NCBI GenBank assembly: GCA_019637395.1
Contig: JAHBVR010000010.1
Location: forward strand, 124,001 to 188,000
Direction of reading: 5' to 3'
Length of the DNA stretch: 64,000 nt
DNA from: Vulcanimicrobiota bacterium
Lineage (GTDB): Bacteria; Vulcanimicrobiota; Xenobia; Xenobiales; JADMJV01
In this document: positions 8,137 to 51,395 of the stretch, piece after piece
Layout: every line of letters begins with the position of its first letter
How positions within the stretch are numbered: position 1 is the first letter of the stretch
Notes under the pieces: model-generated
Database searches by the model: none
What the model saw: the letters and a program-made list of their open reading frames with translations, nothing else
What the model was told of the DNA's origin: nothing
Made by a program: the position numbers and the translations under genes

Positions 8137-8143
8137 GCGCTCG

Positions 8144-33494: not shown

Positions 33495-34397
33495 CTACCG
33501 CAGGATCTTTTGCCGGACCAGGTAGCGGGCGAAATGTTCGGCCGCGGCCACCCCCGGGTGCCAGCTGTCGCCGGGGCTTTCGGGGAGGTCGACGCCTTCT
33601 TTCAGAGCGGCCTCCATATCGGGGAACAGATCGTAAGTGGTGATGCCCTCTTCCTTCAGCAGCTCCAGGGCGTTCTGACGCGACCATTTTTCTTTGTTGG
33701 TCCATTGCTCGTAGGGCTTCAGGATGGGCAAAAGGATGACCGAAAACGGGACCTTTTGCTGGCTGGTGATCTGGCGGAAACCGGCCAGGGCTTCTTTGAC
33801 GGCCGCCCGCTGGCGGGCTCGGTCCAGGTTTCCCAGGCTCAAGCCGGTCAGCCAGCGATAGAGATAGCTGTGGGAGAAAAGCCAGGCGTTGATGTGCTGG
33901 CCGTCGCGCCGCATAAAGTGGATTTGCAGTTCGCCGTTTTCACGGAAGACCAGCGGTGTATCCTGGAAATCGTTGTTGTGAAAGGTCAAAATGACCTGGT
34001 CCGGCTTGAGCTGGGAGTTGACGCGCCGATAAAAGACCAGCTCTTGCATGGTGTTGAAGCTCTCCACGCCCGCGTTCCAGTATTCATAATCCTGCTTTCC
34101 GTAGTGCTTCTCCAGGGCGTCCTGAATGCGCCCGCGGCGAGTCACCGAATCGCCTACGAAAAGAATTCGTTTCCCTTGCCGCGGTTGGCTGCCGTCGCGA
34201 TCGGGCAGGCGCCGGCCCTTCTCATCGTAACGGTCCACCCGGCAACCGAACCGGTCATAAGCAGCGTTGCCCAGAACCGGGATATAGCCGCACTCCGGGT
34301 CGGCCTGGAAGTTGGCGCGCTCACCCGCACGAAACTGCAGTTGCGAACCGGCCCCCATGACCATGCCGGGGAAAAACCAGCGTAGGGCCAGCTCCAT
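33495..34397 (-). CDS. Membrane-anchored SGNH hydrolase-family protein linked to the pfa operon
   Basis: The 300 residues from ATG 34397 include ILFVGDSVTRRG (nucleophile Ser), FHNNDFQ (block III Asn) and DSWHPGVAAAEHFA (Asp/His), an SGNH or GDSL fold. The reading frame is open upstream to 34494 but has no ATG, GTG or TTG there. A CTG at 34460 overlaps the pfaC stop (CTGA). Starting at that CTG would give LNKWFKRLALLGLGLAIGLL, a complete membrane anchor, whereas ATG 34397 cuts the helix. I think translation couples from pfaC with the CTG start. It may hydrolyse or transfer an acyl ester of the pfa product. Confidence 0.75.
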   Translation of the reverse strand: MELALRWFFPGMVMGAGSQLQFRAGERANFQADPECGYIPVLGNAAYDRFGCRVDRYDEKGRRLPDRDGSQPRQGKRILFVGDSVTRRGRIQDALEKHYGKQDYEYWNAGVESFNTMQELVFYRRVNSQLKPDQVILTFHNNDFQDTPLVFRENGELQIHFMRRDGQHINAWLFSHSYLYRWLTGLSLGNLDRARQRAAVKEALAGFRQITSQQKVPFSVILLPILKPYEQWTNKEKWSRQNALELLKEEGITTYDLFPDMEAALKEGVDLPESPGDSWHPGVAAAEHFARYLVRQKILR

Positions 34398-34456: not shown

Positions 34457-37400
34457 TCAGGCGCGCACCAGGCGCATGGCGAAGTCGGTCATTTCATAGA
34501 TGGGTTTGCCGTCCACCACCAGGAAGCCGTTGGCCGTGACCACCGGTTCGTCGCCCTCTTCCACCCTGGTCACCCAGGCTTCCACTTCCACGATCTTGTT
34601 GGTGGGAATGACCTGGCCGCGATAGCCCCAGGTATGGGGCCGGTTGGTGGCGATGCACTCGAAGCGGTGGGTGTCGGCCAGTTGCGGCCAGCGATCCAGC
34701 ATGAGCACCTTGAGCAACTGCAGGAAGGCCTCCAGGCCGAGCGATCCCGGCCAGACCGGATCCATATAAAAATGGGCCTGAAAGAACCACTCGTCGGGAT
34801 TGACCTGCTTGATACCGTGGATATAGCCCAGTCCATGGGGCCCACCGTCCCGAACATAGAGATCGGCCTCATCCATCATCTGCATGGCCCCACCGGGCAT
34901 ACAGGCGCTGGTGCCCGCCTGATACTGGCTATCTTCGGGAGTGAGCGGATGCTGGCGGGGCAGAGCCACCCGGCGGCCGCGCGCTTTCTCCTGCGCGCTC
35001 GGTTGATAGCGTTTGGCTTCGCGAATGCCCACCTGGTTGTCGAGCGCGGCCTTGGAAAAGAAACCGAAATAGGTAGTGCCTTCGTAGACCATGGTATCGC
35101 CCTGCAACACCTGCATGTCGAAGTTCTCGATGATCATACCGCCGGCTTCCGAAACTTTGGACATACGCACGCGAATGCGCAGCATGCCGGCCTGATCGGT
35201 GAGCTCGCGGAAGAGGGTGGCCGTGCCGCCCAGGTTGCGGAATTTCAGGTCCTCGTTGCTGCGCAGGGCCGAGCCGGCGTAAGCGGCCAGCCAGCCACAG
35301 GGCTGCAGGGCGATTTCCAGCAAAATTGCGAAAGCCATGGTGGGCTGGCGGTTGGCGGCGAAATACCATTCGCGTTCGGGCACGAAGTAGTGGGCTTCGA
35401 TCCAGCCGCCGGCCTGCAGCACCCAGGGCTCCTGATTCACTTCCACTACCCGGTCCATAAAGGCGTAGGGGGGCCGGGGCAGGCGCGCGATGCGCCGGCC
35501 TTCATCGAAGATCTTGTATTTATCGCCAAAGGCCAGACTGGGCTTGCCGTAGGCGAACTGCATGATGCTCTCCCGATCGTAGAGAGCTTTCACGCCGTCC
35601 TCTGCGGCGGCAGGGGGCCAGAGCGATTCGAGTTGGGCCTGCGTGAGTCCGACCAGGCGCATGGACATGCCTACGAAGCGCACGATGCACTTGCCGTCGG
35701 CATACATCAGCGCGTCCGCGATCACGTAGGGCTCGGGGCCGTAGCCAACTTCCTTGATCTCGACTTCGTATTGCACTTTCTTGGTCTCGACCGTGACCGG
35801 GCCGCGGCAGCGCAACACGGCCGGCACGCCGATCTTCGGCTCATAGGTGACCTGGTCGGCTTCCCCCACCCAGCCCATGCGCAACAGTAAAAAGCGCAGG
35901 GTATGAGCGCAGCATTCGTACATCAAGGTGCCGGGCATCACCATGTCGTCCACAAAGTGGCAGGTCAAGAACCAGTCGTCGGGATGCACGTCCGCTTCGG
36001 CGCGCACCCGGCCCAGTCCAAAACGCCCCCCCTTGGGGTCCACCTCTAAAACACGGTCGTAGAGCTTCATGCGGCCCGAGGGGAGATGGGGCGGGTTGGT
36101 GATGGGCAGTTGGGCGAAGGCGGCTCCGAAGCAGCCACCCAGGTCGCCCACGCGCAGGCAGTTGACCTGGGCGTCGCTATAGCTTTCCTTTTTCGTGAAG
36201 GGCGCCAGAGGACGGTAGCCCACCACTTTGCCGGCTACCTTTTGCGTCTCTTCAGGAGTGAGAATGATCCCTTTGGAATTGCGGATTTCATCATCTTCAA
36301 AAAAGCCGGCGCAGCCGTTGCGCATGGTGATCATGGGCTGGCCGTCGATGGTGCCGTCAAACTCGAAGAAGAAGAGATAGGTCTCGCCCTGGCGCACGAA
36401 GCGGTCGATGCGGATGTCATAAGCAATCGTTTCCCCGACCGTCGGCAGTTGCCGGTGGAAACTGACGGTGGCATCGAGCAGACGGTAGGTGCGCTGACCT
36501 TTGGTCTGCAGGTCGATGCCTAAATAACCGGAGAGGAAAAGGTCCGCCTGACCCGCCTCGACGGTCACGCACACGGGCATGCGCCCATTGTCCAGATACC
36601 AGGCGCCCGGCTGCACGTCGTGCTCGGTCACCACCTTGCCGCCGGTCATGGAACCGGGTTCGCCCACGATTTCGGTGATGCGGTGTACCAGCATCAGCGG
36701 ATCATCGGGCAGCCGCACCCGGGTGGGGTAGGTGTCGACATCTTTGAACATGGGCCCGAGCACTTTGGCGATCGATCCGATGGCGAATTCCATGCACTGG
36801 TCATAGTCGAGCACGCAGGGTTTTTTGACGGGCACGATGGGCTGCAAGTTGTGGTCGCAGAACGGGTAATACTTGCCTGTCGGGGGCGCGGCCACGTTGC
36901 CGCCCATCTGTTGCAGCAGCGTAATTCCTTCGGCCAGTTGGGCGACCGCCTGTTGGTGCAGCTCCAGGAATTTCTGGTGGGCCCGGCTGCCGGCCTGGGC
37001 CGAAGCCAGAATCTGAGACTGCAGGGCGGGCAGTTTCACGCGTTGCTTGTCCATGGAGTCTATCTCCCAATCGTCGATTTCAAATTCCAGGTTCAGTTCA
37101 AATTCGTCTTCGCTGAGCTGCACGACAGCAGAGGGCTGCACGACCGGTGCGGGCGGGGCAATCGGCATTGTCGGTTTGGGTCGGGGCGGGGCGGGCTGGG
37201 GAGCGAGCTTCTCCGGCAGTTGCCTGACCTGAGGCAGCAGCGCACCCAGCCGGATGGTGACGCTTTTACCGGCTTTCCTCGGGGGCGGTCCTTCCACGGC
37301 CGGGTAGAGTGCGGATAACGACAAGCCCGGGCATTCCTCGGCCAGCAAGCCGGCCCACAGGTGGAGCAGGCCGGCCCACTCGCCGCGGTGGCTGGAATTG

Positions 37401-40400
37401 AGGGCCAGCGCTCGTTGCGGCTGGCCGTGCAGAATCTGCTCCACCATACGGGTGCAGGAATTGCCCGGTCCGATCTCCACGAAGTAGCGGATGCCGTCGG
37501 CATAAGCGCGCCGGATTACCTTGGTGAAGTCCAGCCCGTGCACGGCCTGTTCCACGATGCTGCGGGCCGAATTCTCGCTGGTCATCTCATACGGTTCGGC
37601 TCGATAGGCGCTGTAGTAGGTCAGGCCCGGCGGTGAGGCCACGCGCACGTGGTGCAGGTCAAAGTACTCCTGGGCCACCTGCTCCACCGCCTGGCTGTGC
37701 ACCGTGGGCACGGCTTCCAGATAGACGGCCTGACAACCTAATTGCTCGATGAGGCTCGCCAGATCGGGAGCGTCACCACCCACCACACATTCCTTGTCGG
37801 TATTGACGATCAGCAGCTCCAGCTTGCCCTGCAGACGCGGACGCACTTCCTCGGCCGGCCGGGTGAGCACGGCCACCCGCCACTCGAAGGGCTGTCCCTC
37901 GGGCACCTTCCAGAAGCGCCGCGCCGCCAGGCACGGCCCGCCCAGTTGCCGGCGGAACAAGTCGCTGGCCTGCATGCGATCGTGAATTTCTTCGCGGCCC
38001 GGCCAGGCCCGCAAGGACATCAACGCGGCCGACTCGCCCAGCGAGTAACCGATAGCCGCCTCGGGTTTGAGCCCGTAGCTCTGCACGATGTCGCTGGCCA
38101 GCAGCCCGAACATCACCTGTCCGAAAATGGAGCGGTGCAGGTCGGAGGCGATCTCCCCGGCCGAGCGCCGGGTCCAATCGGCCGGCCAATCCTGACGATA
38201 GGGCACGGTCCAGCGGGCCGCCATGTAGCTGCGCAGATGGTCGGATTCTTCATCCAGACGATCGACCACTTCGGGATGCAGCAAAGCCAGCTCGCGGCCC
38301 ATGCCCGCGTAGTGGTTGCCCGAACCGGGATACAAGAAAGCCACTTTGCCGGCCGCGCGCAACGGCGAGCGGCTGAAATAGAGCCCGCCCTGACCCTGGC
38401 CCGGACCCTGCAGCAGGGCCTCCAGATGCTGCAGGCTCTGCTGCAGTTGAGCCCGATCCTCAGCCACCAGGTAGGCCTGGGGTTTCTGGCCCGGATGCTG
38501 CTGGGACCAGCGGCGGGCCGTCTCATGCAAACTCTCGTGGGAAGCTTCAATGAACTCGCGCAATCCCGGAAAAATGCCGAAAAGTCCGCCCTGGGGCTGG
38601 CGCAGCCATAGTCGCTGGCGCTGCGGTCCTTGCTCCAGCACCAGATGGACGGCGTTGCCCTCGCTGGACAAACAATGCACGGCGGCCTGCCGCGGTCCCT
38701 GGCTGCGATCGCGCAACCAGGCCGAAGCTTTTATGGGCACGTGCAGGCGGCCGGCGCTCAGATCGGCCAGCGGTTTTTCAAACTGGGGCAGCGGAGGCAG
38801 GCGGCGAGTGGCCAGGGCCGCCGCCGCTTTGGCCAGGCTCAGCAGTCCTGAGCAGGCGCCGGTCAGACCGCTTTGCGAAGTCAGGCTGCCCAGCGCGCAG
38901 GGCGCTTCACCCGGACCATACCAGGCCTGTAGCACGGCCAGTTCTTGCTCATCCTCGGCGGACACGCCGCTGCCGCAAGCTTCGACATAGCTCACCTGGG
39001 TGGGATGGCTGCCGGCTTCCTGGTGGGCTCGGAAGACGGCCAGGCCCTGAGCCTCGGGAGAAGGCGTGGGATCTTGCGGTCGGCCGCCGGTGGCCGCGCC
39101 GTAGCCCCGGATGATGGCGTAAACCTTGTCATCGGCGGTGCAGTCTTCAAGGCGCTTGAGCACCACCGCCACCGCTCCTTCGCCGCAGGCGCTGCCGGTG
39201 CTGGCCGGATCAAACGGGCGCGGTTCGCCCTGAGGGCGCAGCAGGTTGGCCTGACTGCGCGGATCGCCCTGCAGGTCGATGGCCGTCACCAGAGCGGTAT
39301 CCATCTCGTTTTGCTGCAGCGCGCGCAGGGCCACCTCGAGGGCCTTCAGGCCGGACGCTTCTTCGGCGGAAATGGCGAAGCTGGGGCCGCCGAAGTTGAA
39401 CTCGCGGGCCAGACGGCTGGCCACGATACTGCCCAGCGCTCCCAGGGTCCGGGTGGAATCGAGAGGCTTGGAGGCCAGGTCGCGCAGCTCGGCCAGCCGC
39501 GAAGCATCGTGGCCCCAGTTGCGCAACGCTTCGGGCAGGGCCCAGCGCAGGTGGAAGTCGGTGGTGTCCATGTCCAGGCTGATGCCGATCAGGGCGCCGG
39601 CCCGGGGACGGCGCTGCTGACGGTCCAGGCCGGCGTCGGCGGCCGCCTGGGCGGCCACACGCAACATCAGGGTCTGCTGCGGCAGCACCTCGGGCATTTC
39701 CATGGGCGGAATTTTGAAGGCGCCGATCTCCAGGTCGAAATCCTGGATAAAAGCGCCGGCCGGTCCTTTTTCACCGTTCCAGCGGTCCGGCGGGCTTTCC
39801 AGCAGCAACGAGTGGCCGGCGAAGACGGTGTCCAGCCAGGCTTTCAGATCGGGGGCGCTGCCCACTTCGGCGGCCAGACCCACAATGGCAACCGGCCGAG
39901 CCGGCAGGGCCGGCACCGAGTGCAGCTGGCGCCGGGGTTGGTATTCCTCCACCAGCACGTGGGCGTTGACGCCGCCGAAACCGAAGGCGCTGACGGCGGC
40001 CCGCTTGATGTCTGCCTTCCATTCCTCCGCTTGCTGCTGAATGCGGAAAGGACTGCCGTGCAGTTGCAACTGCGGGTTGGGGTTTTCGCAATTCAAGCTG
40101 GGCGGCAGCACACCGTGCTGCATGCCCAGCAGCACCTTGATCATCCCCGCTCCGCCGGCGCCCGTGAGCAAGTGGCCGATGGTCGATTTTACGCTGCCGA
40201 TGGCGCACTGACCCGGTTCAAAGGGCAGGCCTTGCCATAAGCCGATGAGGCTTTTGACCTCGATACGGTCCCCCATGGGAGTGCCCGTGCCGTGACATTC
40301 GATGAGCTGGACCTCATTGGGCTTCCAGCCGGCCTGTTGGTAGGACTGGTGCATGGCCCGCAGCTGGCCTTCGGTATCGGGAGCCAGCAGGCTGCCGCCG

Positions 40401-41260
40401 ATATCGTTGGATAACCCGATGCCGCGAATGACACCGTAGATTTTGTCGCCCTGGGCCTCGGCGTCGGAGAGTCGCTTGAGCAGCAGCACACCGGCCCCTT
40501 CGCCCACCACCAGACCGTCGCCGCCTTTGTCGAAAGGCGCGCAGCGGCCCGAAGGCGAGAGCGCGCCCAGGGCGGTGAAGCCCATCTGAGTGTAAAGACT
40601 ATCGGGACGACTGACGCCGCCGGCCAGCATGGCGTCGGCTCGCCGGGCCTGCAGTTCATCGCAGGCCAACTTGATCGAATACAGGCTGGAGGCACAGGCG
40701 GCATCTAAGGTATAGCTACCGCCGCCCAGCCCCAGAGCGCGAGCCACGATGGAAGCCGGCAGGCCCGTCACCTGGCGATTCCAGGGGCTGGTCTGCCGGC
40801 GAGTGGATTCGGCCTGAGCGCCCACCCTGGCGGCCAGTCGCGCCTGATAGCGATTCCAGGTTAAAGCCGAAGAACCATCGGTGGGCAAGGCGATGGCGGC
40901 CAGAATGACTCCCACCCGCGAGCGCTCCAGCGACTCGTGCCGTCCGTCTAAAAACGCCTGGCGGGAAGCCTGCAGAGCCACTTTATAAAGGGGATCCAGA
41001 TCTTTCAGCCACTCCTTGTCGACCAGCAATCCGGCCGGGTCCAGTTCGAACGGATCGAGAAAGAAGCCGCGCTTGGAAATGACGTGGTCGCTGCTGCCGC
41101 GCGGATCGTAGGCCAGCTCGGGAGGCAGAACCCAGCGACCGGCCGGGGCTTCCCGGCTGACATCGACTTTTTGAATGAGGTTGGACCAGAACTGGTCTAA
41201 GGAAAAGGCGCCCGGGAGCATCGCCCCCAGGCCCACCACCGCAATGGGTTCTCTATGCAT
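34457..41260 (-). CDS. pfaC: PUFA-synthase-type megasynthase subunit PfaC (KS-CLF-AT-DH-DH)
   Basis: 2267 residues. KS (1-445) has the catalytic Cys in TLDAACASSLY near residue 188, His in ECHGTGTPMGD and GSVKSTIGHL. A chain-length-factor KS (about 450-870) lacks the Cys, which is replaced in ISAEEASGLKAL. An AT follows (about 965-1280) with FLYPGSGNHYAGMG and IGYSLGESAALM, the nucleophile Ser. A Pro-rich linker and a long helical spacer lead to two double-hotdog FabA-like dehydratases; their active-site His motifs are CHFVDDMVMPG near 1766 and AHFYMDPVWPG near 2162. PfaC of marine bacteria lacks the AT. The ATG directly follows the pfaA stop (TAAATG). It condenses, sets chain length and dehydrates. 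Confidence 0.92.
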   Translation of the reverse strand: MHREPIAVVGLGAMLPGAFSLDQFWSNLIQKVDVSREAPAGRWVLPPELAYDPRGSSDHVISKRGFFLDPFELDPAGLLVDKEWLKDLDPLYKVALQASRQAFLDGRHESLERSRVGVILAAIALPTDGSSALTWNRYQARLAARVGAQAESTRRQTSPWNRQVTGLPASIVARALGLGGGSYTLDAACASSLYSIKLACDELQARRADAMLAGGVSRPDSLYTQMGFTALGALSPSGRCAPFDKGGDGLVVGEGAGVLLLKRLSDAEAQGDKIYGVIRGIGLSNDIGGSLLAPDTEGQLRAMHQSYQQAGWKPNEVQLIECHGTGTPMGDRIEVKSLIGLWQGLPFEPGQCAIGSVKSTIGHLLTGAGGAGMIKVLLGMQHGVLPPSLNCENPNPQLQLHGSPFRIQQQAEEWKADIKRAAVSAFGFGGVNAHVLVEEYQPRRQLHSVPALPARPVAIVGLAAEVGSAPDLKAWLDTVFAGHSLLLESPPDRWNGEKGPAGAFIQDFDLEIGAFKIPPMEMPEVLPQQTLMLRVAAQAAADAGLDRQQRRPRAGALIGISLDMDTTDFHLRWALPEALRNWGHDASRLAELRDLASKPLDSTRTLGALGSIVASRLAREFNFGGPSFAISAEEASGLKALEVALRALQQNEMDTALVTAIDLQGDPRSQANLLRPQGEPRPFDPASTGSACGEGAVAVVLKRLEDCTADDKVYAIIRGYGAATGGRPQDPTPSPEAQGLAVFRAHQEAGSHPTQVSYVEACGSGVSAEDEQELAVLQAWYGPGEAPCALGSLTSQSGLTGACSGLLSLAKAAAALATRRLPPLPQFEKPLADLSAGRLHVPIKASAWLRDRSQGPRQAAVHCLSSEGNAVHLVLEQGPQRQRLWLRQPQGGLFGIFPGLREFIEASHESLHETARRWSQQHPGQKPQAYLVAEDRAQLQQSLQHLEALLQGPGQGQGGLYFSRSPLRAAGKVAFLYPGSGNHYAGMGRELALLHPEVVDRLDEESDHLRSYMAARWTVPYRQDWPADWTRRSAGEIASDLHRSIFGQVMFGLLASDIVQSYGLKPEAAIGYSLGESAALMSLRAWPGREEIHDRMQASDLFRRQLGGPCLAARRFWKVPEGQPFEWRVAVLTRPAEEVRPRLQGKLELLIVNTDKECVVGGDAPDLASLIEQLGCQAVYLEAVPTVHSQAVEQVAQEYFDLHHVRVASPPGLTYYSAYRAEPYEMTSENSARSIVEQAVHGLDFTKVIRRAYADGIRYFVEIGPGNSCTRMVEQILHGQPQRALALNSSHRGEWAGLLHLWAGLLAEECPGLSLSALYPAVEGPPPRKAGKSVTIRLGALLPQVRQLPEKLAPQPAPPRPKPTMPIAPPAPVVQPSAVVQLSEDEFELNLEFEIDDWEIDSMDKQRVKLPALQSQILASAQAGSRAHQKFLELHQQAVAQLAEGITLLQQMGGNVAAPPTGKYYPFCDHNLQPIVPVKKPCVLDYDQCMEFAIGSIAKVLGPMFKDVDTYPTRVRLPDDPLMLVHRITEIVGEPGSMTGGKVVTEHDVQPGAWYLDNGRMPVCVTVEAGQADLFLSGYLGIDLQTKGQRTYRLLDATVSFHRQLPTVGETIAYDIRIDRFVRQGETYLFFFEFDGTIDGQPMITMRNGCAGFFEDDEIRNSKGIILTPEETQKVAGKVVGYRPLAPFTKKESYSDAQVNCLRVGDLGGCFGAAFAQLPITNPPHLPSGRMKLYDRVLEVDPKGGRFGLGRVRAEADVHPDDWFLTCHFVDDMVMPGTLMYECCAHTLRFLLLRMGWVGEADQVTYEPKIGVPAVLRCRGPVTVETKKVQYEVEIKEVGYGPEPYVIADALMYADGKCIVRFVGMSMRLVGLTQAQLESLWPPAAAEDGVKALYDRESIMQFAYGKPSLAFGDKYKIFDEGRRIARLPRPPYAFMDRVVEVNQEPWVLQAGGWIEAHYFVPEREWYFAANRQPTMAFAILLEIALQPCGWLAAYAGSALRSNEDLKFRNLGGTATLFRELTDQAGMLRIRVRMSKVSEAGGMIIENFDMQVLQGDTMVYEGTTYFGFFSKAALDNQVGIREAKRYQPSAQEKARGRRVALPRQHPLTPEDSQYQAGTSACMPGGAMQMMDEADLYVRDGGPHGLGYIHGIKQVNPDEWFFQAHFYMDPVWPGSLGLEAFLQLLKVLMLDRWPQLADTHRFECIATNRPHTWGYRGQVIPTNKIVEVEAWVTRVEEGDEPVVTANGFLVVDGKPIYEMTDFAMRLVRA

Positions 41261-44200
41261 TTATCTAGGGCTCGATACGGGTTCTTTCGTAAAAGCTTGT
41301 TTCAGACTGGCGTCGGCCGTCCATTCCACATCGCTGAGGCGAGCCACCAGGGTCCCCTGGTTGTCGACAAAATCGACCGAAGCCACGATCTTGCTGGGGC
41401 TGGACTTCTCCACCCAGAGACGCGCTTCCACGCCGCCGCGCGGGAATTTGCGTTGAAATTGCTGGTAGCCGCCCACCACCATCGGCAGGGAGGGTTTCCC
41501 CAGCGCTTCGATACCCCAGAGGATGCCCAGTTGCAGAGCCGCGTCCACCGCCAGCGGATCGGCCAGCCAGTCGGAACGCAACGGCTGTTTGATCCAATCG
41601 CTGACTTTGGGCAGGGTGCCGACCTGGGCCACGATGCCGTGCGAGGACCAACCGCGCACGCTTTTCACGGCCTGGAAGTGCGGCCCGTGGAAGAGATGGT
41701 CTTTGTAGATGACGGGGTTGCTGTGCGGGTAGGTCTGCTGGGCCAATCCGTTGACGCTGGCCAGCGAGGGGGGCTCGGGCAGCTCGCTGCCCAGGTCGAC
41801 CGAGGCGCGGCTGTGCACCTGGCCGGTCTGAGCGTTGCGCAGTTCGAAGACGTCGCCGTTTTGCACCACCTGCAGGGTCACGTCGCCGTTTTCCAGCGAG
41901 ATGGGGCGCAGGATCTGCAGTTGGCGCAGGCCGCGGAAACGTTGGCCCACCTGGGCAGCCGTGGCCGCCTGGGCAAACCATTCGATCTGCAGGGCCACCG
42001 GCACCACCGGACGGCCACCCACCTGGTGCGATTCCAGGCAGGGGAATTCTTCCACGGAAGCCACCACCTGGAGTAAACCACCGGAGGGCTTGTCGCTGCC
42101 GGGCGGGGCCGGGAAGCCGTCACCGTAGAGGATTTCCACGGCACCGCCGGGAGCGGCCGAGAGTTCGCGCACCATCGCTTCGGCGCCGGCGTCCAGCTCG
42201 ATCAGTCCCACACCCAGCCGCTGGAATTCTTTCTTGAGGCCTTCGGTGACCATACCGCCGCCCCACGGGCCCCAATTCAAGGAAACCACCCGGCAACCGG
42301 GACGGCGCTGGGCTTCCAGTTGAGCGGTTTTGTTGAGCAGGTCGTTGGCCATGCAGTAGTCCACCTGGCCGGGCCGGCCGAAGCGGGCCGTCACCGAGGA
42401 GAAGAGCACGATGGCTTTCAACCTGGCGTCTTGGAGCGGCTGCAGCAGGTGCTTGAGGCCGGTGATCTTGGTGGAGAAGACCGAATCGAACATCTCGTCG
42501 GTCTTTTCCTCAATCTTTTTATCGGCCAGCACGCCGGCGCCGTGCACGATGCCCTGGATGGGCCCCAGGCTGGAGCTGATCTCGTGGATCATATTGGAGA
42601 CGGCCTGCTGGTCACGCACGTCCAGCGAACGGTATTCCACCTTGGAGCCGGCCTGACGGATGGCTTCCAGGTTGCCGTGGACTTCGCGCTGGGCCTGCAG
42701 GGCCTTGAAGCGGGCTTCAATGTCCTTGGGCGAGGCTTTGCCGTTGAACTCGTGCTGCAGGATGGCTTTCTTGAGCGCGCCGTCCTGGGTCAGTCCGCGC
42801 GCCCAGGCCGGTTCTTCCGCCGGCAGCGGCGAGCGGCCCAGCAGCACCAGAGTGGGCTGGCACGAGCGGGCCAGAGCGATGACGGTGGCGGCCGTCACTC
42901 CGCGAGCGCCACCGGTAACCAGCACCACATCCCCTTTTTTGAAGAGAGGTTTGGTGACGGTCACTTCCTCCAGCGGAGTCTCGAGGGCAAAACGCTGGCC
43001 GGCCGTCAGGCCCAATTCCAGCGGACCGCCGTGAGAGATTTCCTGGATGAGCTTCCGGGCCACCGCCTGGTCGTCGCGGAAAGCGTTATCCACGTCGAAG
43101 GCGCGGCAGGTCACTTCCGGCCATTCGTGGGCGGCCGTCTTGGGCAGGCCGGTCAGGGCACCGCTTTCGGGCGCCGGGAAGTTCCCGGTCAATCCGAAGC
43201 GTCCGTCCAGGCGGGCGACGCTCACCAACAGCCCCTTCTGAGCGCGCAGAGCGGTGGCCGCGCTACGCACCGTCTGGAAGCTCTCGCGCAAGGGGCTATC
43301 CACCAGGAAAAGGCCGGCCAGGTCTGGAGCGACTTCGTGGACGACTTTGAGACCGAGTTCCTGCAGTTCTTTCTCCAGCGCTTGCGCCAGACTGTTGCCC
43401 TGGGAGGCAAAGACCATCACCCTGGCGCCTTTGCCCAGTGGGAACGGCTTGCCGTTATTGAGGGGAGGCTGGGCGGTGGCCAACAGGATGCGGCGTTCCA
43501 ACTTGCTGGTGCTGGCTACGGGCGCCGGAGCCAGCACCGGCGTGGGAGCCGCGGTGGGCAGGCCGATGGCTTCGACAATCTGGCGCAGGGTGCGCAGGCT
43601 GCCCACCCGATCCGCCGGCAGGGAACCGGCTTCAGGCACCGCCGCCAGAATTTCCACGCGCTTGATGCTATCCACACCCAGGTCGGCTTCCAGGTCCATA
43701 TCCAGATTGAGCATTTCTACGGGGTAGCCGGTTTTTTCCGCGACAATGGCCAGGAGGTTCCCGTTGGTCTGAGGAGCGGCTACGGGCGCGGGCGCAGCGG
43801 TGGCGCCGAAAGCGCTGACGATCTGACCCAGAGTCCGCAAGGACCCCATCTGATCCGAGGCCACCTTGGGAAGTCCCGGCACCTTCTCTTCGATGGCGGC
43901 CAGGATTTCCACCCGCTTGATCGAGTCGATGCCCAAATCGGCTTCCAGGTCCATCTCCAGGTTGAGCATCTCCACCGGGTAACCGGTCTTTTCCGCCACC
44001 ACCTGCATCAGGGCCTGGGAAACGTTGCCGCTCGGGGCGGCCGGTGCCGGAGCCGGGCTGGCGCTGGCGCCAAAGGCGCCGACGATCTGACCGAGAGTCC
44101 GCAGGGACCCCATCTGATCGGGGGCGACTTTGGGTAATCCCGGCACCTTCTCTTCGATAGCGGCCAGGATTTCCACCCGCTTGATGGAGTCGATACCCAG

Positions 44201-47200
44201 GTCGGCCTCGAGATCCATTTCCAGGTTGAGCATTTCCACCGGGTAGCCGGTTTTTTCGGCGACTACTTCGAGCAAAGCTTTGGAAACGCCGGGAACGGGA
44301 GCAGCCGCTGCCACGGGCGCGGTATCGACCGCTCCAAAAGCTCCCACGATTTGCCCCAAAGTCCTGAGAGACCCCATCTGGTCGGGGGCGACTTTGGGAA
44401 GTCCCGGCACTTTCTCTTCGATAGCGGCCAGGATCTCCACGCGCTTGATGGAGTCGATGCCCAGGTCGGCCTCGAGATCCATTTCCAGATTGAGCATCTC
44501 CACCGGATAGCCGGTTTTGTCAGCGACCACTTCCAACAAAGCTTTGGAAACGCCGGGAACGGGAGCAGTTGCTGCCACGGGAGCAGCCGTTACCGCACCA
44601 AAAGCTCCAACAATCTGACCGAGAGTCCGCAAGGACCCCATCTGATCGGGGGCGACTTTGGGCAATCCCGGCACCTTCTCTTCGATAGCGGCCAGGATTT
44701 CCACGCGCTTGATGGAGTCGATGCCCAGGTCGGCCTCGAGATCCATGTCGAGGTTGAGCATCTCCACCGGATAGCCGGTTTTGTCGGCCACCACTTCGAG
44801 CAGCGCCTTGGACACTCCGGGAGCGGGAGCGGCGGCCACGGGAGCAGCCACCGCGCCAAAAGCGCCGACAACCTCCCGCAGAGTTCTCAAAGACCCCATC
44901 TGATCCGAGGGAACAGCAGCCAGATCGGGCATTTTTTCCTGCACGGCGGCCAGAATTTCCACGCGCTTGATGGAGTCGATGCCCAGGTCCGCTTCCAGAT
45001 CCATGTCCAGGTTGAGCATCTCGACCGGATAGCCGGTTTTATCAGCTACCACGGCCATGACCGCGTTCCCCACCGCCGGTTGCGCCGGAGCGGCCGGAGC
45101 CGGGACGACCGGAGCGGGCTTGGGAGCCACCGCAGTGACCCTGGCTACGGGAGCCGCAGCCGGCGCGGGCGGAACGAAAGCGGCCGGAGGCGGAGCCGGG
45201 GCCAGCGCCGGAGCGGGCACGTGCACGGCCGCCGGAGCCTGGCCACCCTGCAGGCGCGACATCAGCGCCTGCTGGTTCTGCACCAGCGTCTGGAAAGTTT
45301 TCATGGTGGTTTCCTGGGTTTCCAGGAAGCGCTGGTGAGCCTGCGCGGCCTGCTGCTGCAGGGCCTGGATGGCCAGCATGCTGGCCTGCACCTGCTGCAC
45401 GGCTTCCGGAGACACCACCGGCTGCTGCGTAACCACCGGAGCCACCGGCCTGGCGGCCACCGGAGCGGGCGCGGCCACTGGAGCCGGAGGGGTCTTGCTC
45501 ACCGCCGGCTGCGAGCCGGCCGGCGGCAATACGTTGACGCTTCCAGCCGGACGCACGTTGCTGGATTTCTTGGTCTGAGGCGAGCGGTAGTTGGCGCCGG
45601 TCAGTTCCACCGTCATCTTGCGCTGGCGACCCTCGGCCGGAGCGGTTTCCCACTGGCCCAGGTGCACGGGCAGGCCGAGGGCGGCCAGTTGGGCCAGACC
45701 CTGAGCCAGGTCGGCCAGACCGTGTTTGCCGGTCGAAGCGTCCAGCGGCACGGCCTTGAAGTCCTTGCCCTTGAGGATGGCGCCCACCAGTTTGGTGAGC
45801 ACGTTTTTCGGACCAACCTCGACGAAGGTGCGGGCACCGCGGTGATAGAGTTCCTCCACTTGAGCCACCCAGTTGACCTGGGAAACCAGTTGATTGGCCA
45901 GCAAATCCTTCATTTTTTTGGCTTCGCCCGGGTAATCCTGAGCGGTTTTATTGGCCACGACCGGCAGGCTGGTTTTGGCGAATTTCACCTCGTCCAGGCC
46001 CTTGCGGAAAGGAGCCTCGGCGCTGGCCACCAGCGGGCTGTGAAAAGCCGCGCCAACCTGCAGAGGAATGGCCCGCATGCCGTGTTCTTTCAGTTTGGCG
46101 GTGGCTTCCCTGACCGCTTCCTTGCTACCCGAAAGCACGCACTGGCCGGGGCTGTTACGGTTGGCGATGACCACATCCTTGAGTTCGGGTAACAGCGCTT
46201 CCACTTTTTCCAGCGGAGCGGTGACGGCCGCCATGGCGCCGCGGCCGCCGTCGCCCCGGGCCATCAACTCACCGCGCAGGAAGGAAACCTTGCACAGCGC
46301 GTCGGCGTCATATACGCCGGCCGCATACAGGGCGCACAGCTCACCGTAGCTGTGACCGCAAGTGAAGTCGGGGGTCAGGCCAAAGCGCTGACTCAAAATC
46401 TCGTAAATACCGCGGTTCAGCGCACCTAGAGCGGGCTGGGCGGCGTCGGTGGCCGTCAGCGCCTCTTCGCGAGCCTTCTTGAGCTCGTCGTTGAAGGTGG
46501 GCGGCGGGTACATCTTGGCGCTGAGCGGCTCGCCCTGGGGCGAATGGGCGTCGCTGCGTTCGATGGATTCCAGCACCTCGGGGAAGATGCAGGCCAACTC
46601 ACGCCCCATGTTCACATACTGGGAACCCTGGCCGGGGAACATAAAGACGACCTTGCCGGCTTCCACGCCGGGGGCATAGAAGATCTCGGGACCCTCGCTG
46701 GCCTTGCCGTCATGCACCTGCTGAGCCGCCTGCAGCAGCAGGTCTTTTAGCGAATTCTCGGTGTTCCACACGATCACGCAACGGGCCGGGGCTTTGAAGT
46801 CGAACTCGGCGCTGCGCTGATGGGCCAGGCGAGCCTGTTCGGCCAGTTCAACGGGCAGCTTGTCGGCGCTGGTCTTGAGCGCCTGGGCCAGCAGAGCGGG
46901 CGTGGTGTTGGATTCGGCCCAGATGCGCAGGCTGCCGTCCCAGGCCACTTCCGGGCGCTCGGATTGGGCTTCTTCCAGCACCATGTGAAAGTTCGAACCG
47001 CCAAAGCCGAAGCTGGAAAGGGCGGCGCGGCGCGGTTGGCCCGGCTCGCTCACCCAGGGACGAGCTTCGTTATTGATGTAGAAGGGGCTCTCCTCGATGT
47101 TCATCTTGGGATTGGGCTTCTCCACGCCCAGCGTGGGCGGGAATACCTTGTAATACAGGGCCAGAGCGGCCTTGATCAGGCTGGCTGAGCCAGCCGCCGC

Positions 47201-48364
47201 CTTGGTGTGACCGACCTGTGATTTGACCGTGCCCAGAGCCACATATTGCTTGCGCTCGCCGCTGGCCGGCGCGTAGACGCTGCGCAGGCCCTCGAATTCG
47301 ACCACATCACCGACCTTGGTGCCGGTGCCGTGAGCTTCCACCAGGCGAATCTGGTTGGGCGAAACGCCGGCTCTCTCATAGGCGTCGCGCAGAGCGCGGG
47401 CCTGGCCTTTGGAGTCGGGGGCGTAGACGGCGCCGGAGTTGCCGTCGGAGGCCGTGCCCACGCCTTTGATCACGGCGTAGATACGGTCGCCGTCGGCCCT
47501 AGCGTCGGACAAACGCTTGAGTACCACCATGCCCAGGCCTTCGCCGATCAGGGTCCCGTCGGAGGCTTCCGAAAACGGCCGGATCTTGCCGCTGGGAGAC
47601 AGGGCCGGGGTTTTGGAAAAACACATATACATGAAGATGTCGTTAAACGTATCGGCGCCGCCGGTGATGACCATATCGGCCTTACCGGTGACCAGCTCCA
47701 GCATGGCCAGGTGGGCGGCCGACAGCGAACTGGCGCAGGCGGCGTCGACCACGCAGTTGGTTCCGTGCAGGTCCAGGCGGTTGGCGATGCGGCCGGCCAC
47801 CACGTTGCCGAGCAGACCGGGGAATGAGTTTTCCTGCCAGGGTACATAGCCCTCCGCGATGCGGCCCATGACCTCTTCGACCAGTTCGGGAGCCAGGCCG
47901 GATTCCACCAGAGCTTTGCGCCAGATGGGGTGACCGAGGCGGGCGCCCAGGGGAACGACCAGTTCCAGCGTGCCGGTCACGCCCAGGATGACGCTGGTGG
48001 TGTCCCGCTTGAATTCCTTATTGGGCCCGTAGCCGGCATCTTCCAAGGCCGCCTTGGCCACGACCAGGCCGAGCAACTGACTGGTATCGGTGGCTTCGAG
48101 CACCGTGGGCGGCAGCGAGAACTCGGTGGGATCGAAGCGGTGAGCGGGCAGAAAGCCGCCGCGCTGACAGTAGGTCATGTCCGGTGCTTTCTGGTTGGCG
48201 TCAAAGTAGTCTTCGGGACGCCAGTGAGTCTGGGGGATCTCGGTGATGCCGTCCACTCCGGCCCGAATCAGGTGCCAAAAGCCCTTTAAATCCGGTGATT
48301 TCGGATACATCGCGGCCATACCCACAATGGCGATGGCGTCGGCGGTGTTGTTTTTCTTACTCAT
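41261..48364 (-). CDS. pfaA: PUFA-synthase-type megasynthase subunit PfaA (KS-AT-6xACP-KR-DH)
   Basis: 2367 residues. KS (1-450): VVDAACASSLSA (Cys), VEAHGTGTKVGD and GTVKSQVGHTKAA (His). AT (about 565-870): MFPGQGSQYVNMG and CGHSYGELCALY (Ser). After a Pro/Ala linker come six tandem acyl carrier proteins (about 1100-1600), each with LEADLG[IV]DSIKRVEIL, whose Ser carries phosphopantetheine. KR (about 1810-2050): VVLVTGGARGVTAAT and FSSVTARFGRPGQVDY (Ser and Tyr). A polyketide-type DH closes the protein, with HQVGGRPVVP and LAVDAALQLG supplying His and Asp. It starts 9 nt after pfaD with AAGGGA upstream. It loads, elongates and reduces the acyl chain. Confidence 0.94.
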   Translation of the reverse strand: MSKKNNTADAIAIVGMAAMYPKSPDLKGFWHLIRAGVDGITEIPQTHWRPEDYFDANQKAPDMTYCQRGGFLPAHRFDPTEFSLPPTVLEATDTSQLLGLVVAKAALEDAGYGPNKEFKRDTTSVILGVTGTLELVVPLGARLGHPIWRKALVESGLAPELVEEVMGRIAEGYVPWQENSFPGLLGNVVAGRIANRLDLHGTNCVVDAACASSLSAAHLAMLELVTGKADMVITGGADTFNDIFMYMCFSKTPALSPSGKIRPFSEASDGTLIGEGLGMVVLKRLSDARADGDRIYAVIKGVGTASDGNSGAVYAPDSKGQARALRDAYERAGVSPNQIRLVEAHGTGTKVGDVVEFEGLRSVYAPASGERKQYVALGTVKSQVGHTKAAAGSASLIKAALALYYKVFPPTLGVEKPNPKMNIEESPFYINNEARPWVSEPGQPRRAALSSFGFGGSNFHMVLEEAQSERPEVAWDGSLRIWAESNTTPALLAQALKTSADKLPVELAEQARLAHQRSAEFDFKAPARCVIVWNTENSLKDLLLQAAQQVHDGKASEGPEIFYAPGVEAGKVVFMFPGQGSQYVNMGRELACIFPEVLESIERSDAHSPQGEPLSAKMYPPPTFNDELKKAREEALTATDAAQPALGALNRGIYEILSQRFGLTPDFTCGHSYGELCALYAAGVYDADALCKVSFLRGELMARGDGGRGAMAAVTAPLEKVEALLPELKDVVIANRNSPGQCVLSGSKEAVREATAKLKEHGMRAIPLQVGAAFHSPLVASAEAPFRKGLDEVKFAKTSLPVVANKTAQDYPGEAKKMKDLLANQLVSQVNWVAQVEELYHRGARTFVEVGPKNVLTKLVGAILKGKDFKAVPLDASTGKHGLADLAQGLAQLAALGLPVHLGQWETAPAEGRQRKMTVELTGANYRSPQTKKSSNVRPAGSVNVLPPAGSQPAVSKTPPAPVAAPAPVAARPVAPVVTQQPVVSPEAVQQVQASMLAIQALQQQAAQAHQRFLETQETTMKTFQTLVQNQQALMSRLQGGQAPAAVHVPAPALAPAPPPAAFVPPAPAAAPVARVTAVAPKPAPVVPAPAAPAQPAVGNAVMAVVADKTGYPVEMLNLDMDLEADLGIDSIKRVEILAAVQEKMPDLAAVPSDQMGSLRTLREVVGAFGAVAAPVAAAPAPGVSKALLEVVADKTGYPVEMLNLDMDLEADLGIDSIKRVEILAAIEEKVPGLPKVAPDQMGSLRTLGQIVGAFGAVTAAPVAATAPVPGVSKALLEVVADKTGYPVEMLNLEMDLEADLGIDSIKRVEILAAIEEKVPGLPKVAPDQMGSLRTLGQIVGAFGAVDTAPVAAAAPVPGVSKALLEVVAEKTGYPVEMLNLEMDLEADLGIDSIKRVEILAAIEEKVPGLPKVAPDQMGSLRTLGQIVGAFGASASPAPAPAAPSGNVSQALMQVVAEKTGYPVEMLNLEMDLEADLGIDSIKRVEILAAIEEKVPGLPKVASDQMGSLRTLGQIVSAFGATAAPAPVAAPQTNGNLLAIVAEKTGYPVEMLNLDMDLEADLGVDSIKRVEILAAVPEAGSLPADRVGSLRTLRQIVEAIGLPTAAPTPVLAPAPVASTSKLERRILLATAQPPLNNGKPFPLGKGARVMVFASQGNSLAQALEKELQELGLKVVHEVAPDLAGLFLVDSPLRESFQTVRSAATALRAQKGLLVSVARLDGRFGLTGNFPAPESGALTGLPKTAAHEWPEVTCRAFDVDNAFRDDQAVARKLIQEISHGGPLELGLTAGQRFALETPLEEVTVTKPLFKKGDVVLVTGGARGVTAATVIALARSCQPTLVLLGRSPLPAEEPAWARGLTQDGALKKAILQHEFNGKASPKDIEARFKALQAQREVHGNLEAIRQAGSKVEYRSLDVRDQQAVSNMIHEISSSLGPIQGIVHGAGVLADKKIEEKTDEMFDSVFSTKITGLKHLLQPLQDARLKAIVLFSSVTARFGRPGQVDYCMANDLLNKTAQLEAQRRPGCRVVSLNWGPWGGGMVTEGLKKEFQRLGVGLIELDAGAEAMVRELSAAPGGAVEILYGDGFPAPPGSDKPSGGLLQVVASVEEFPCLESHQVGGRPVVPVALQIEWFAQAATAAQVGQRFRGLRQLQILRPISLENGDVTLQVVQNGDVFELRNAQTGQVHSRASVDLGSELPEPPSLASVNGLAQQTYPHSNPVIYKDHLFHGPHFQAVKSVRGWSSHGIVAQVGTLPKVSDWIKQPLRSDWLADPLAVDAALQLGILWGIEALGKPSLPMVVGGYQQFQRKFPRGGVEARLWVEKSSPSKIVASVDFVDNQGTLVARLSDVEWTADASLKQAFTKEPVSSPR
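43560..45065 (-). repeat. Six tandem ACP-coding repeats in pfaA
   Basis: The six ACP units start about every 260-270 nt; their phosphopantetheine Ser codons are near 44978, 44711, 44450, 44185, 43925 and 43655. Units 2 to 4 are near-identical in protein (PVEMLNL[DE]MDLEADLG and the closing QMGSLRTLGQIVGAFG). The first and sixth units differ more, and the sixth is shorter (VPEAGSLPADRVGS). Alternating Ala/Pro linkers separate them. ACP number is known to raise product yield in Pfa systems; the similarity of the inner copies suggests recent duplication or gene conversion. Confidence 0.92.
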
Positions 48365-48373
48365 CTGTTTCCC

Positions 48374-49996
48374 TTATGCTCCCAAGTAGGCACTGATTTG
48401 GTCTTTGGTCATCGGTTGAAAAGCGGTGGCGCTGTCGGGCAGATCGGCGCCCTGCTGGCGCAGGTAGTTGGCCCGGGTCAGCACGGCCGCGCCCAACATC
48501 AAATTGTGGGCAACCAAGCCGGCCCGGCGATTCTCGGCCTTCTCAAGCTCGGAGCCCTTGGCCCACTCGTTGAAGGCGCCCATGGCCGGGCCGCACCAGA
48601 TTTGGAAGTCCACCTTGCGGTCTTCCAGGCCGGAATTAGCCCAGCGCGAGGCCCGTCCCAGATAGGAGCGGAAGACCAGCGCCATTTTGTGCTTGGGATC
48701 CTTGTCGGCGCGCTCGTTCTGGCGCGGATCCCGTTGCGTGAAGAAGGCGCGGGTATTTTCCCATTCCTGCTCGAGGGTGGTGCGGAAGTAATCTTTCTCC
48801 AGAGTCTGGCGTTCGGCCGCCGGAATGGCTTCCAGACTGTCATAGCGCCGATAGATCTCATACAGCTTCTTGGCGCGCACCGGGAACATGGTGCCCCACT
48901 TGAGCACCTGCACGTTGACGCCCATTTCGAACATATCGGCGGCCGGAGCCATGGCCACGTCGGCCTGGCGAGCCTGAGCCAGCATACCCCGAACAATATC
49001 GGAGCTACCCGACTCCAGACAGCTCTGATTGACCGAACCGGTGACCACGAAGCCGGCGCCCATGGCGAAGGCAGCGCACACCGAGTAAGGAGTTGCGAAC
49101 CCCCCGGCGGCGCCCACGCGCGGCTTGCGGGCATACTGGAATTTGGCCTGCAGTTGGTCGCGCAGGGCGATCATGGTGGGGATCAAGCAGACGGCCGGCC
49201 GATTGTCGGTGTGTCCACCGGAATCGGCTTCGGCGGTGATGTCCTCCGCGACGGGAATTTGGGCGGCCAATTCCGCCTGATCGGTGGTAAGAAAACCTTG
49301 CTCGACCAGTTGGGCCAACATCTTGTCCGGAGCCGGGGTAAGAAATTTGGTGGCCACCTCGACGCGCGAAATTTTGGCGAAGACCTGGTTGGGGGTGACT
49401 ATGGAGCCGTCCGGGCCGCGATGAATGCCGGCCAGGCGGTATTTCACCAGCGGCAGGGTCAGGCCCAGGAAGGCGGCCGCTTCAATGCGGCGGATACCCC
49501 GCTTGATATAGAGGTCGGCGATGGCCGCTTCCAGGTCCGGCTCGGAAGGGCTGTGGATAAAGTTAAAGCCGAAGGGCCGGTCGCCCAGACTGCCCTGCAG
49601 GCGGTCGATGGCTTTCTCGACGCGCTTGGGGTCGAGTCCAGCGGCTCCGAAGAAGCCCAGTCCGCCGGCGGCACAGGTCGCTTCCACCAGTTCTTCGCTG
49701 GCGATGCCGTTGGCCATGGCGCCCTGCACGTAAGCGTATTGCAGGCCGTGGATGCGGCGAAATTCCTGATCTCCCAGAGCTGAGGGATGGAGAGCGGGGG
49801 CAAAAGCCAGGATTTTCTTGCCCTTCCCCTGGGCCGAGAAGGTGACCGAGCCGCCCTGAGCGACCTTGAGGTCTTCCAAAAGGAACACCGGTTGGCTGAC
49901 GTTCAGCAAAGCTTGAGCCAGATCGCTCGATTCTGTTCCATTGTCTTGTGCTTGCCACCAGCCCTGACTCGCGGTCTGGGTCATTGTTGTCGTCAT
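48374..49996 (-). CDS. pfaD: PUFA-synthase enoyl reductase PfaD
   Basis: I chose ATG 49996, six bases after GGAGG; the longer frame to 50044 has no such site. About 540 residues. It is an FMN-dependent enoyl reductase of the 2-nitropropane dioxygenase-like fold. HGLQYAYVQGAMANGIAS, CAAGGLGFFGAAGLDP and GAAGGFATPYSVCAAFAMGA are the TIM-barrel and FMN-binding stretches, and GFVVTGSVNQSCLESG is the family-specific segment of PfaD. It reduces the double bonds that are not kept in the final chain. First gene of the pfa operon; its promoter must lie in 49997-50213, shared with the divergent ATP-grasp gene. Confidence 0.93.
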   Translation of the reverse strand: MTTTMTQTASQGWWQAQDNGTESSDLAQALLNVSQPVFLLEDLKVAQGGSVTFSAQGKGKKILAFAPALHPSALGDQEFRRIHGLQYAYVQGAMANGIASEELVEATCAAGGLGFFGAAGLDPKRVEKAIDRLQGSLGDRPFGFNFIHSPSEPDLEAAIADLYIKRGIRRIEAAAFLGLTLPLVKYRLAGIHRGPDGSIVTPNQVFAKISRVEVATKFLTPAPDKMLAQLVEQGFLTTDQAELAAQIPVAEDITAEADSGGHTDNRPAVCLIPTMIALRDQLQAKFQYARKPRVGAAGGFATPYSVCAAFAMGAGFVVTGSVNQSCLESGSSDIVRGMLAQARQADVAMAPAADMFEMGVNVQVLKWGTMFPVRAKKLYEIYRRYDSLEAIPAAERQTLEKDYFRTTLEQEWENTRAFFTQRDPRQNERADKDPKHKMALVFRSYLGRASRWANSGLEDRKVDFQIWCGPAMGAFNEWAKGSELEKAENRRAGLVAHNLMLGAAVLTRANYLRQQGADLPDSATAFQPMTKDQISAYLGA

Positions 49997-50213
49997 CTCC
50001 GGCCTCCATGCTTGGTCCCGCGCCCGCCTCGGGCACAGGGTCAAGCGCTATTACCCGCATGGCGCGGTACAAAACCGTTACTTTTTCGGGCAAGCATGAA
50101 GCATAACGGAACCGATTGCCCTTTTATTGCATGACCGGGAAAGTTTTTTCAGAAGGTTCCCCTGGGCCGGGAGCAAAGACTCGGGCCAAACAATCGCCCG
50201 GAGGTTTTTCACT

Positions 50214-51395
50214 GTGACGGTATTGTGCGTCGCCAGTTTCTATAAAGGATGGAAGTTTCTCGAGGAACTTGCCCGGTTGGGTTGCCACATCGTGCTGGTT
50301 ACCACCCAGGAGGTCTACAACGAACCCTGGCCGGCCTGTGTCAATGAACGCTTTTGTGTGCACAAGATCGATAATTTCGAGGAAGTTCGCAAAGCCGTCG
50401 GTTACCTGGCCCGCTCCCGCGATTTCGGCGCTATTTTGCCGATCGATGAGTACGTGGTCGATATTTGCGCCCAATTGCGCGAACATTTTCGCATTCCCGG
50501 GATCGGAGTCAGCGATGCCGCGCGCTTCCGCGACAAGTTGTTGATGCGCATCGAGGCCGACAAAGCGGGCGTGCCGGTGCCGGCCTTCTCGGCGGTGCTG
50601 CCTCATTCCAGGCTCAAGGAGTTCTGCCGGCAAGTGCCCGCCCCGTGGATTCTCAAGCCTCGCGCCGAGTCCGGCTCGGTCAAGATGCGCAAACTGGAAA
50701 ACGAGCGCGAACTGTGGGCGGCCGTCGAAGAATTGGGCGATGACCAGTCCCATTATCTGGTGGAGCGCTTTGTCAAGGGCAATATCCTGCACGTGGACGG
50801 CGTCGTCTGGAAGGGCAAGCTGGTTTTCTCTTCAGCCCACCGTTACGGCAAGACGCCCTTCTCCATCTGGCGCGACGGCGGCGTTTTCTCATCCCGTACC
50901 ATCGAAAAGAAAGATCCCACCTACGCCAGGGTCCACAAGCTGAATGAAGAGTTGATCAAAGCCCTGCGTCTGGAACATGGCGTTACTCACGCCGAATACA
51001 TCGAGGCCGAGGACGGCTCCATCTACTTCCTGGAAATCGCTGCCCGCGTGGGCGGCGCTCATATTGACGCCCTGGTCAAAGAGACGCGCGGAGTGGATCT
51101 GTGGGTGGAATGGGCCCGGGTGGAGCTGGCCGCCGCCGCCGGCAAGCCCTACAAGGTCAAGGCCTCCAAAGACCTTCAAGGGGGTCTGTTTGTCTGTCTC
51201 ACCCGCCAGAAAACCCCCGACCTCTCGGAATACGATGACGAGGAAGTCACCTGGAGCCATGTCTGGGACTACCACTTGGCCATGACCGTGGCCAGCAAGG
51301 ACAGCAAACGCGTCGACCGCCTGCTGGAGGCCTACCAGCACCGTTTTGCCGATGACTTCCTGGCCATCGGCACCGGCGGAGATCGCCCAGCTTAG
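50214..51395 (+). CDS. ATP-grasp carboxylate-amine ligase-like protein
   Basis: I start this at GTG 50214, nine bases after GGAGG; the frame from 50127 lacks such a site. 393 residues. An N-terminal Rossmann-like domain (VLCVASFYKGWKFLEELA) precedes an ATP-grasp core. PWILKPRAESGS binds ATP, HYLVERFVKGNI is the central strand, and YFLEIAARVGG carries the Mg2+-binding Glu and Arg near the C-terminus. The family links a carboxylate to an amine or thiol through an acyl phosphate. It is divergent from pfaD, so a role in activating or decorating the pfa product is possible but unproven. Confidence 0.78.
   Translation: MTVLCVASFYKGWKFLEELARLGCHIVLVTTQEVYNEPWPACVNERFCVHKIDNFEEVRKAVGYLARSRDFGAILPIDEYVVDICAQLREHFRIPGIGVSDAARFRDKLLMRIEADKAGVPVPAFSAVLPHSRLKEFCRQVPAPWILKPRAESGSVKMRKLENERELWAAVEELGDDQSHYLVERFVKGNILHVDGVVWKGKLVFSSAHRYGKTPFSIWRDGGVFSSRTIEKKDPTYARVHKLNEELIKALRLEHGVTHAEYIEAEDGSIYFLEIAARVGGAHIDALVKETRGVDLWVEWARVELAAAAGKPYKVKASKDLQGGLFVCLTRQKTPDLSEYDDEEVTWSHVWDYHLAMTVASKDSKRVDRLLEAYQHRFADDFLAIGTGGDRPA

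Follow-up and report, generated by a model that had tools for sequence, protein, structure and literature searches.

A 2011 survey by Shulse & Allen (PMC3098273) described fusions that carry an acyltransferase (AT) inside PfaC (pfaBC), among them Types C, D, I and K, and found ole genes either linked to pfa or located elsewhere. In Geobacter bemidjiensis, pfa and ole genes stand in tandem and a C31:9 polyene hydrocarbon is made (PMC4882568, PMC3098273), while the OleA of Shewanella draws 16:4 from the acyl carrier proteins (ACPs) of the Pfa system (PMC6463001). Here we report a pfaD-pfaA-pfaC locus in a Vulcanimicrobiota bacterium, lying within a stretch of 64,000 nucleotides (contig JAHBVR010000010.1, positions 124,001 to 188,000; hereafter the window). 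Since pfaBC fusions have been on record from 2011, the layout of this locus was already known. What is new is the phylum, the missing Ole partner in the window's class, and the division of OleA into separate clades. We think it likely that the locus encodes a complete iterative synthase of the polyunsaturated fatty acid (PUFA) or 'secondary lipid' type, with pfaB fused into pfaC, and that its product is a lipid rather than a dedicated Ole C31 polyene.

Gene layout and domain content

The locus consists of three consecutive, uninterrupted frames on the minus strand, in the order pfaD-pfaA-pfaC and separated by gaps of 9 nt and then 0 nt, as a preliminary description of the window had reported. 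That description also proposed the domain strings KS-AT-6xACP-KR-DH and KS-CLF-AT-DH-DH (KS, ketosynthase; KR, ketoreductase; DH, dehydratase; CLF, chain length factor). Pfam and NCBIfam searches agree, with two refinements: what was given as a single 'DH' is in each case a double hotdog, and pfaD may start at either of two codons, ATG (frame 48374-49996) or TTG (frame reaching 50044). The genes and their domains are as follows.

48374..49996, minus strand: pfaD, FMN enoyl reductase of the synthase (TIGR02814 match; PfaD structures as relatives)
41261..48364, minus strand: pfaA, KS-MAT-6xACP-KR-PS-DH, 2367 amino acids (TIGR02813, Pfam domains, six LG[IV]DS motifs)
46937..48340, minus strand: KS of PfaA (DAACASS 207, EAHGTGT 343, GHTKAA 385; placed in the PfaA clade of the KS tree)
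45575..46654, minus strand: malonyl-type AT of PfaA (GHSYG 670, AAFH 772)
43535..45076, minus strand: six tandem ACPs of PfaA (six PP-binding stretches; serine motifs at 1127-1562)
42245..43387, minus strand: KR of PfaA (PF08659; GGARG 1818, YCMAN 2003)
41285..42112, minus strand: DH of PfaA, of the polyketide synthase (PKS) type (PF14765, PF21089; HQVGGRPVVP 2113, DAALQ 2274)
34457..41260, minus strand: pfaC (fused pfaBC), KS-CLF-AT-DH'DH-DH'DH, 2267 amino acids
39926..41251, minus strand: KS of PfaC (Cys/His/His present)
38621..39898, minus strand: CLF of PfaC, KS-like, with Glu replacing Cys (SAEEAS 631)
37337..38386, minus strand: embedded PfaB-like AT (GYSLG 1071, TVHS 1186, W1117, W1127)
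35591..36823, minus strand: first FabA-like DH'-DH pair (active half CHFVDDMVMPG 1767; PF07977, FabA structures as relatives)
34460..35590, minus strand: second FabA-like DH'-DH pair (active half AHFYMDPVWPG 2162; PF07977)

The domain and catalytic-motif content of the three frames lies far above chance. In NCBIfam profile searches PfaD scored 627 bits against TIGR02814 (cut-off 449) and PfaA 1926 bits against TIGR02813 (cut-off 1010), which bears out the earlier reading of a PUFA-synthase-type locus; the closest solved structures to PfaD are the PfaD chains 6lkc (1e-177) and 4yx6. Pfam resolves PfaA into KS, AT, six PP-binding stretches, KR and PS-DH, and PfaC into two KS-type stretches, one AT and four FabA-type stretches, with no AGPAT domain beyond the last DH in the same scan. 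Residues 4-816 of PfaC, covering KS and CLF, align to the KS-CLF structure 6riw (1.4e-117), named only ORF10 in the PDB table, which we take to be Moritella marina PfaC. The four FabA-type stretches form two DH'-DH pairs, in each of which the catalytic motif is retained solely in the second half. The key catalytic residues are intact, whose loss the preliminary description had named as a reason for doubt: Cys/His/His in both active KS, Ser/His in both AT, all six ACP serines, and the KR and PS-DH motifs of PfaA. GC content differs mildly from the surroundings (64% in the locus, 59-61% in the flanks).

The acyltransferase inside PfaC and the kinship of the locus

As the preliminary description had noted, the AT lies inside PfaC and a separate pfaB gene was not found among the neighbouring window frames scanned, which sets the locus apart from the marine Type A/B. 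The absence of a separate gene is explained by the PfaB-like nature of the AT within PfaC. Its best solved relative is the PfaB entry 9ry8 (2.9e-26; runner-up 2e-12), the Shewanella baltica structure (PMC12895367). Malonyl ATs are marked by GHSxG and AFH, and PfaB by GYSxG, in which Tyr replaces the malonyl-AT His, together with the fully conserved W501 and W511 (PMC12895367). The PfaC AT carries the motif GYSLG, and its W1117 and W1127 align with the PfaB tryptophans; in the 80 relatives retained for comparison (below), the Tyr is found in 80/80 and the tryptophans in 78/80 and 80/80. Against the PfaB family TIGR02816 it scores 81.5 bits, under the NCBIfam cut-off of 144.3. Judged by its sequence, the AT is PfaB-like and not a stray malonyl transferase, and pfaB is therefore fused into pfaC, not missing. 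Stand-alone PfaB transfers long acyl groups and determines the final product (PMC12895367), and the fused AT may act in the same way. Two PfaB malonyl-binding positions were also mapped onto the PfaC AT and left unused, the positions being variable or mis-indexed in relatives.

To collect relatives, about 85,000 species genomes were scanned with a query made from five full-length PfaC rows. This yielded 567 pattern matches, of which 532 were related stretches, and 80 of the 532 were retained. All 80, from Desulfobacterota, Geobacteraceae, Planctomycetota and others, carry the KS-CLF-AT-DH-DH fusion. The preliminary description's view that the locus could not be assigned to a known Pfa group is not supported: the fusion is shared by every retained relative and was described in 2011 (PMC3098273). 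Most retained relatives with enough upstream sequence have pfaD and pfaA upstream of pfaC in the same order; nine with 8-10 kb upstream have no pfaA there, so gene order varies. Stand-alone PfaB loci of Type A/B were not recognisable in an even-draw sample of the gammaproteobacterial class.

PfaC identity outside the phylum is 41-48% over the whole protein. The nearest PfaC relatives are metagenome-assembled genomes, two of them filed under Candidatus Eremiobacterota, for which tree taxonomy gives the phylum Vulcanimicrobiota. Among open-licence literature, no paper linking Eremiobacterota to PUFA-type synthases or polyunsaturated lipids was found. Four other species of the window's genus have the same three-gene set (PfaC identity 80-92%), and PfaD exceeds the cut-off in 20 of the 149 genomes of the phylum.

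Kinship was further assessed with a maximum-likelihood KS tree, in which branch support is given as number pairs; the marine Pfa references in the analysis are solved structures only. The window's PfaC KS groups with Moritella PfaC KS (6riw, identified as above) and other PfaC KS (100/99). PfaA KS rows form a second clade (99/94), which also contains a Type P KS. Neither Pfa clade includes the cyanobacterial, Agrobacterium or own-genome PKS rows (100/100), the cyanobacterial rows being plasmid KSs, not proven HglE. The tree thus places the locus with PfaC and not with PKS or cyanobacterial KS; a place among PKS or heterocyst-glycolipid synthases was what the preliminary description had held out as the counter-case. 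Loci without pfaA contributed the same KS twice, under both labels, and the placements cited here are unaffected. Among the PfaC KS, that of the window belongs to a clade of 21 rows (99/96) together with Desulfosudis, Planctomycetota and an acidobacterium, with Geobacteraceae apart, in a tree without lettered-type reference rows. The phylum holds two pfa lineages, one represented by genome G005 (family f6) near Geobacteraceae and a planctomycete, and the other, that of the window's class, elsewhere. The window genome also contains a separate type I PKS-like frame of 2066 amino acids (C1:52849-54093; L001, L146), with a strong KS outside the Pfa KS clades.

Proposed function and the fate of the acyl chain

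Reaction order, polyunsaturation and chain length are proposed here by analogy with characterised Pfa systems. The PfaA AT (GHSYG) would load malonyl onto the six PfaA ACPs, activated by an unlinked Sfp-type phosphopantetheinyl transferase (PPTase; the single PF01648 match in the window genome, on contig C10). Condensation would be carried out by the PfaA KS and the KS-CLF pair of PfaC, and the PfaA KR and PS-DH would reduce, then dehydrate, each ketoacyl unit. The two FabA-type DH'-DH pairs of PfaC would dehydrate and isomerise to give methylene-interrupted cis double bonds, and PfaD would reduce the remaining enoyl bonds. The PfaB-like AT would then end synthesis by transferring the long acyl group from the ACP. 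In the least certain step, the acyl product would pass to a lipid, or to the neighbouring SGNH enzyme, rather than into a dedicated Ole route to a C31 polyene, since the genome has no OleA of the pfa-linked type. The fused AT is likely to release a polyunsaturated acyl chain as the product, in place of a dedicated C31:9 hydrocarbon, and the polyunsaturated lipid that the preliminary description offered as a possibility now appears probable.

Four points weigh against this proposal. The product in Vulcanimicrobiota is a prediction from gene content. Full or near-full pfa sets may make little or no long-chain PUFA, as in Psychromonas (PMC3098273) and Sorangium (PMC8436480). Release has been demonstrated for stand-alone PfaB (PMC12895367), and extends to the fused form only by analogy. 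Finally, oleA and oleBCD occur elsewhere in the window genome, so a hydrocarbon end product is possible.

On that alternative, the synthase would feed C16 polyunsaturated acyl-ACP to the unlinked OleA for head-to-head condensation, and OleBCD would complete a C31 polyene, as in Shewanella and supposedly G. bemidjiensis. Beyond the chemistry of those two bacteria, gene order speaks for it. Ole genes lie directly 3' of pfaC in most relatives, where an oleABCD run is seen, a reading matched by the NCBIfam names of the genes in Geomonas edaphica. Of the 55 relatives from other phyla that have 2.5 kb or more downstream, 44 have ole genes after pfaC and 41 have oleA. The window genome itself has an OleA-like gene (contig C31:294222-295223; L143 8220-9236), included in an alignment in which E97, C123, H274 and N304 are invariant, and an oleBCD run (contig C3, about 79-82.5 kb; L176 5058-8565). 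However, these lie on different contigs, both distant from pfa, and ole genes follow pfaC neither in the window nor in any of the four loci of its class with 10 kb downstream. In the OleA tree, all pfa-linked OleA form one clade, including those of Eremiobacterota families f5 and f6, and a long 100/100 branch separates this clade from Xanthomonas OleA and from the unlinked OleA found in the window's class; the window genome's OleA also lacks an extra stretch found in pfa-linked OleA. Further, in G135, another genome of the genus, oleBCD is present, and an OleA search gave FabH-grade matches only, although an assembly gap is possible. We consider the hydrocarbon route unlikely.

Genome G139, of the same family as the window, still has oleBCD after pfaC, without oleA, which suggests that the pfa-ole linkage was lost stepwise. 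Where its oleA would be expected, between pfaC and oleBCD, lies a frame of 1021 amino acids (C84, L177 10354-13419) that contains internal repeats and has a membrane end; it is not matched by Pfam and shows no tie to lipid chemistry. In eight mostly gammaproteobacterial loci (L078, L088, L091, L093, L103, L104, L119 and L130), the OleA match covers 399 against 347 alignment columns, owing to an insertion of about 50 residues.

A polyunsaturated chain bound for a lipid might involve one further gene.

33495..34397, minus strand: SGNH/GDSL-type hydrolase, 300 amino acids, starting 59 nt after pfaC

At the sequence level Pfam does not match its product. The AlphaFold model, which is of modest confidence (pLDDT 61, pTM 0.63), matches SGNH esterases and the E. 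coli TesA thioesterase, and the patterns GDSVTRR, HNNDF and DxWHP are invariant. A homologue stands directly after pfaC, or at most 2 kb away, in each of the other four species of the genus; no fetched locus outside the genus has one near pfaC. The hydrolase may thus be linked to the pfa pathway, and a role in product release is a guess. We also speculate that the pfa system of the genus has been re-plumbed, the dedicated OleA having been lost and the hydrolase at the operon end now freeing or transferring the polyunsaturated chain, to give a lipid end product of a kind absent from Geobacter-type loci. Taken as a whole, this is quite improbable.

The chain could instead be a long saturated, hydroxylated or keto lipid, similar to heterocyst glycolipids or phenolic lipids, as the related secondary lipid synthases of Types F and P produce such chains (PMC3098273). 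Type F lacks paired FabA-like DH domains, whereas two intact pairs are present here, and the KS stands with PfaC, apart from the cyanobacterial plasmid KS tested; we give such a product very little chance. A silent or decayed cluster without any product is hardly credible, for although genome-level evidence leaves room for it, frames and active sites are intact and the same set is maintained in four further species.

Other genes in the window were recorded. An ATP-grasp ligase-type gene (50127-51395, plus strand) lies directly upstream of pfaD in divergent orientation; a frame at 50124-50792 (minus strand), which seemed conserved in the genus, was dropped as antisense to it. Directly after the SGNH gene comes a 908-amino-acid surface-type protein with Ig-like (Big_2) and FG-GAP repeats (30735-33461, minus strand), not seen in relatives' loci. 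Further away are a row of outer membrane efflux protein, membrane fusion protein and AcrB-type pump (5526-11323, plus strand), whose first two called frames overlap, and a cysteine peptidase of the Clostripain family (C11; 15846-17297, minus strand).

Comparison with described systems

The locus extends PUFA-type synthases to a poorly cultured phylum, and the AT-in-PfaC layout emerges as a broad bacterial form and no myxobacterial or thraustochytrid oddity. Relatives with linked pfa and ole genes can be set beside this genus with unlinked ones, a contrast naturally suited to asking where the chains made by fused-AT synthases go, into membranes or into hydrocarbons.

Marine Type A/B systems (pfaABCDE of Shewanella and Moritella) have the same catalytic domains, and their PfaB is homologous to the window's PfaC AT; in the window, the AT is not a separate gene and pfaD comes first. 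In the Schizochytrium Type E synthase, the AT is carried with KS-CLF. By its published description, this three-subunit PUFA synthase has the same domains as the window locus (PMC3098273). Type E has two enoyl reductase (ER) domains, whereas the window has one ER gene and its DH pairs stay with KS-CLF-AT. The Type F heterocyst glycolipid synthase differs from the window in having no paired DH/I domains.

Closer in layout are the Pfa1-Pfa2-Pfa3 systems of Aetherobacter and Minicystis, with the same pfaD-pfaA-pfaC order, an AT in mid-Pfa3 and the PPTase elsewhere (PMC8436480, PMC4882568). According to the published description, Pfa3 ends in a C-terminal AGPAT domain, which the window's PfaC lacks. 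Psychroflexus torquis (Type D) has the same KS-CLF-AT-DH2 fusion and makes arachidonic and eicosapentaenoic acids (PMC3098273), with pfaA split into two genes where the window has one.

Types C, I and K (Desulfatibacillum; Geobacter, Pelobacter and Gemmata; Desulfococcus oleovorans) likewise share the KS-CLF-AT-DH2 fusion with the window locus, and Geobacteraceae and Desulfosudis relatives also share its pfaD-pfaA-pfaC order. From these three types, the locus is distinguished by the lack of a downstream oleABCD, by its phylum, and by its position in a well-supported clade of its own.

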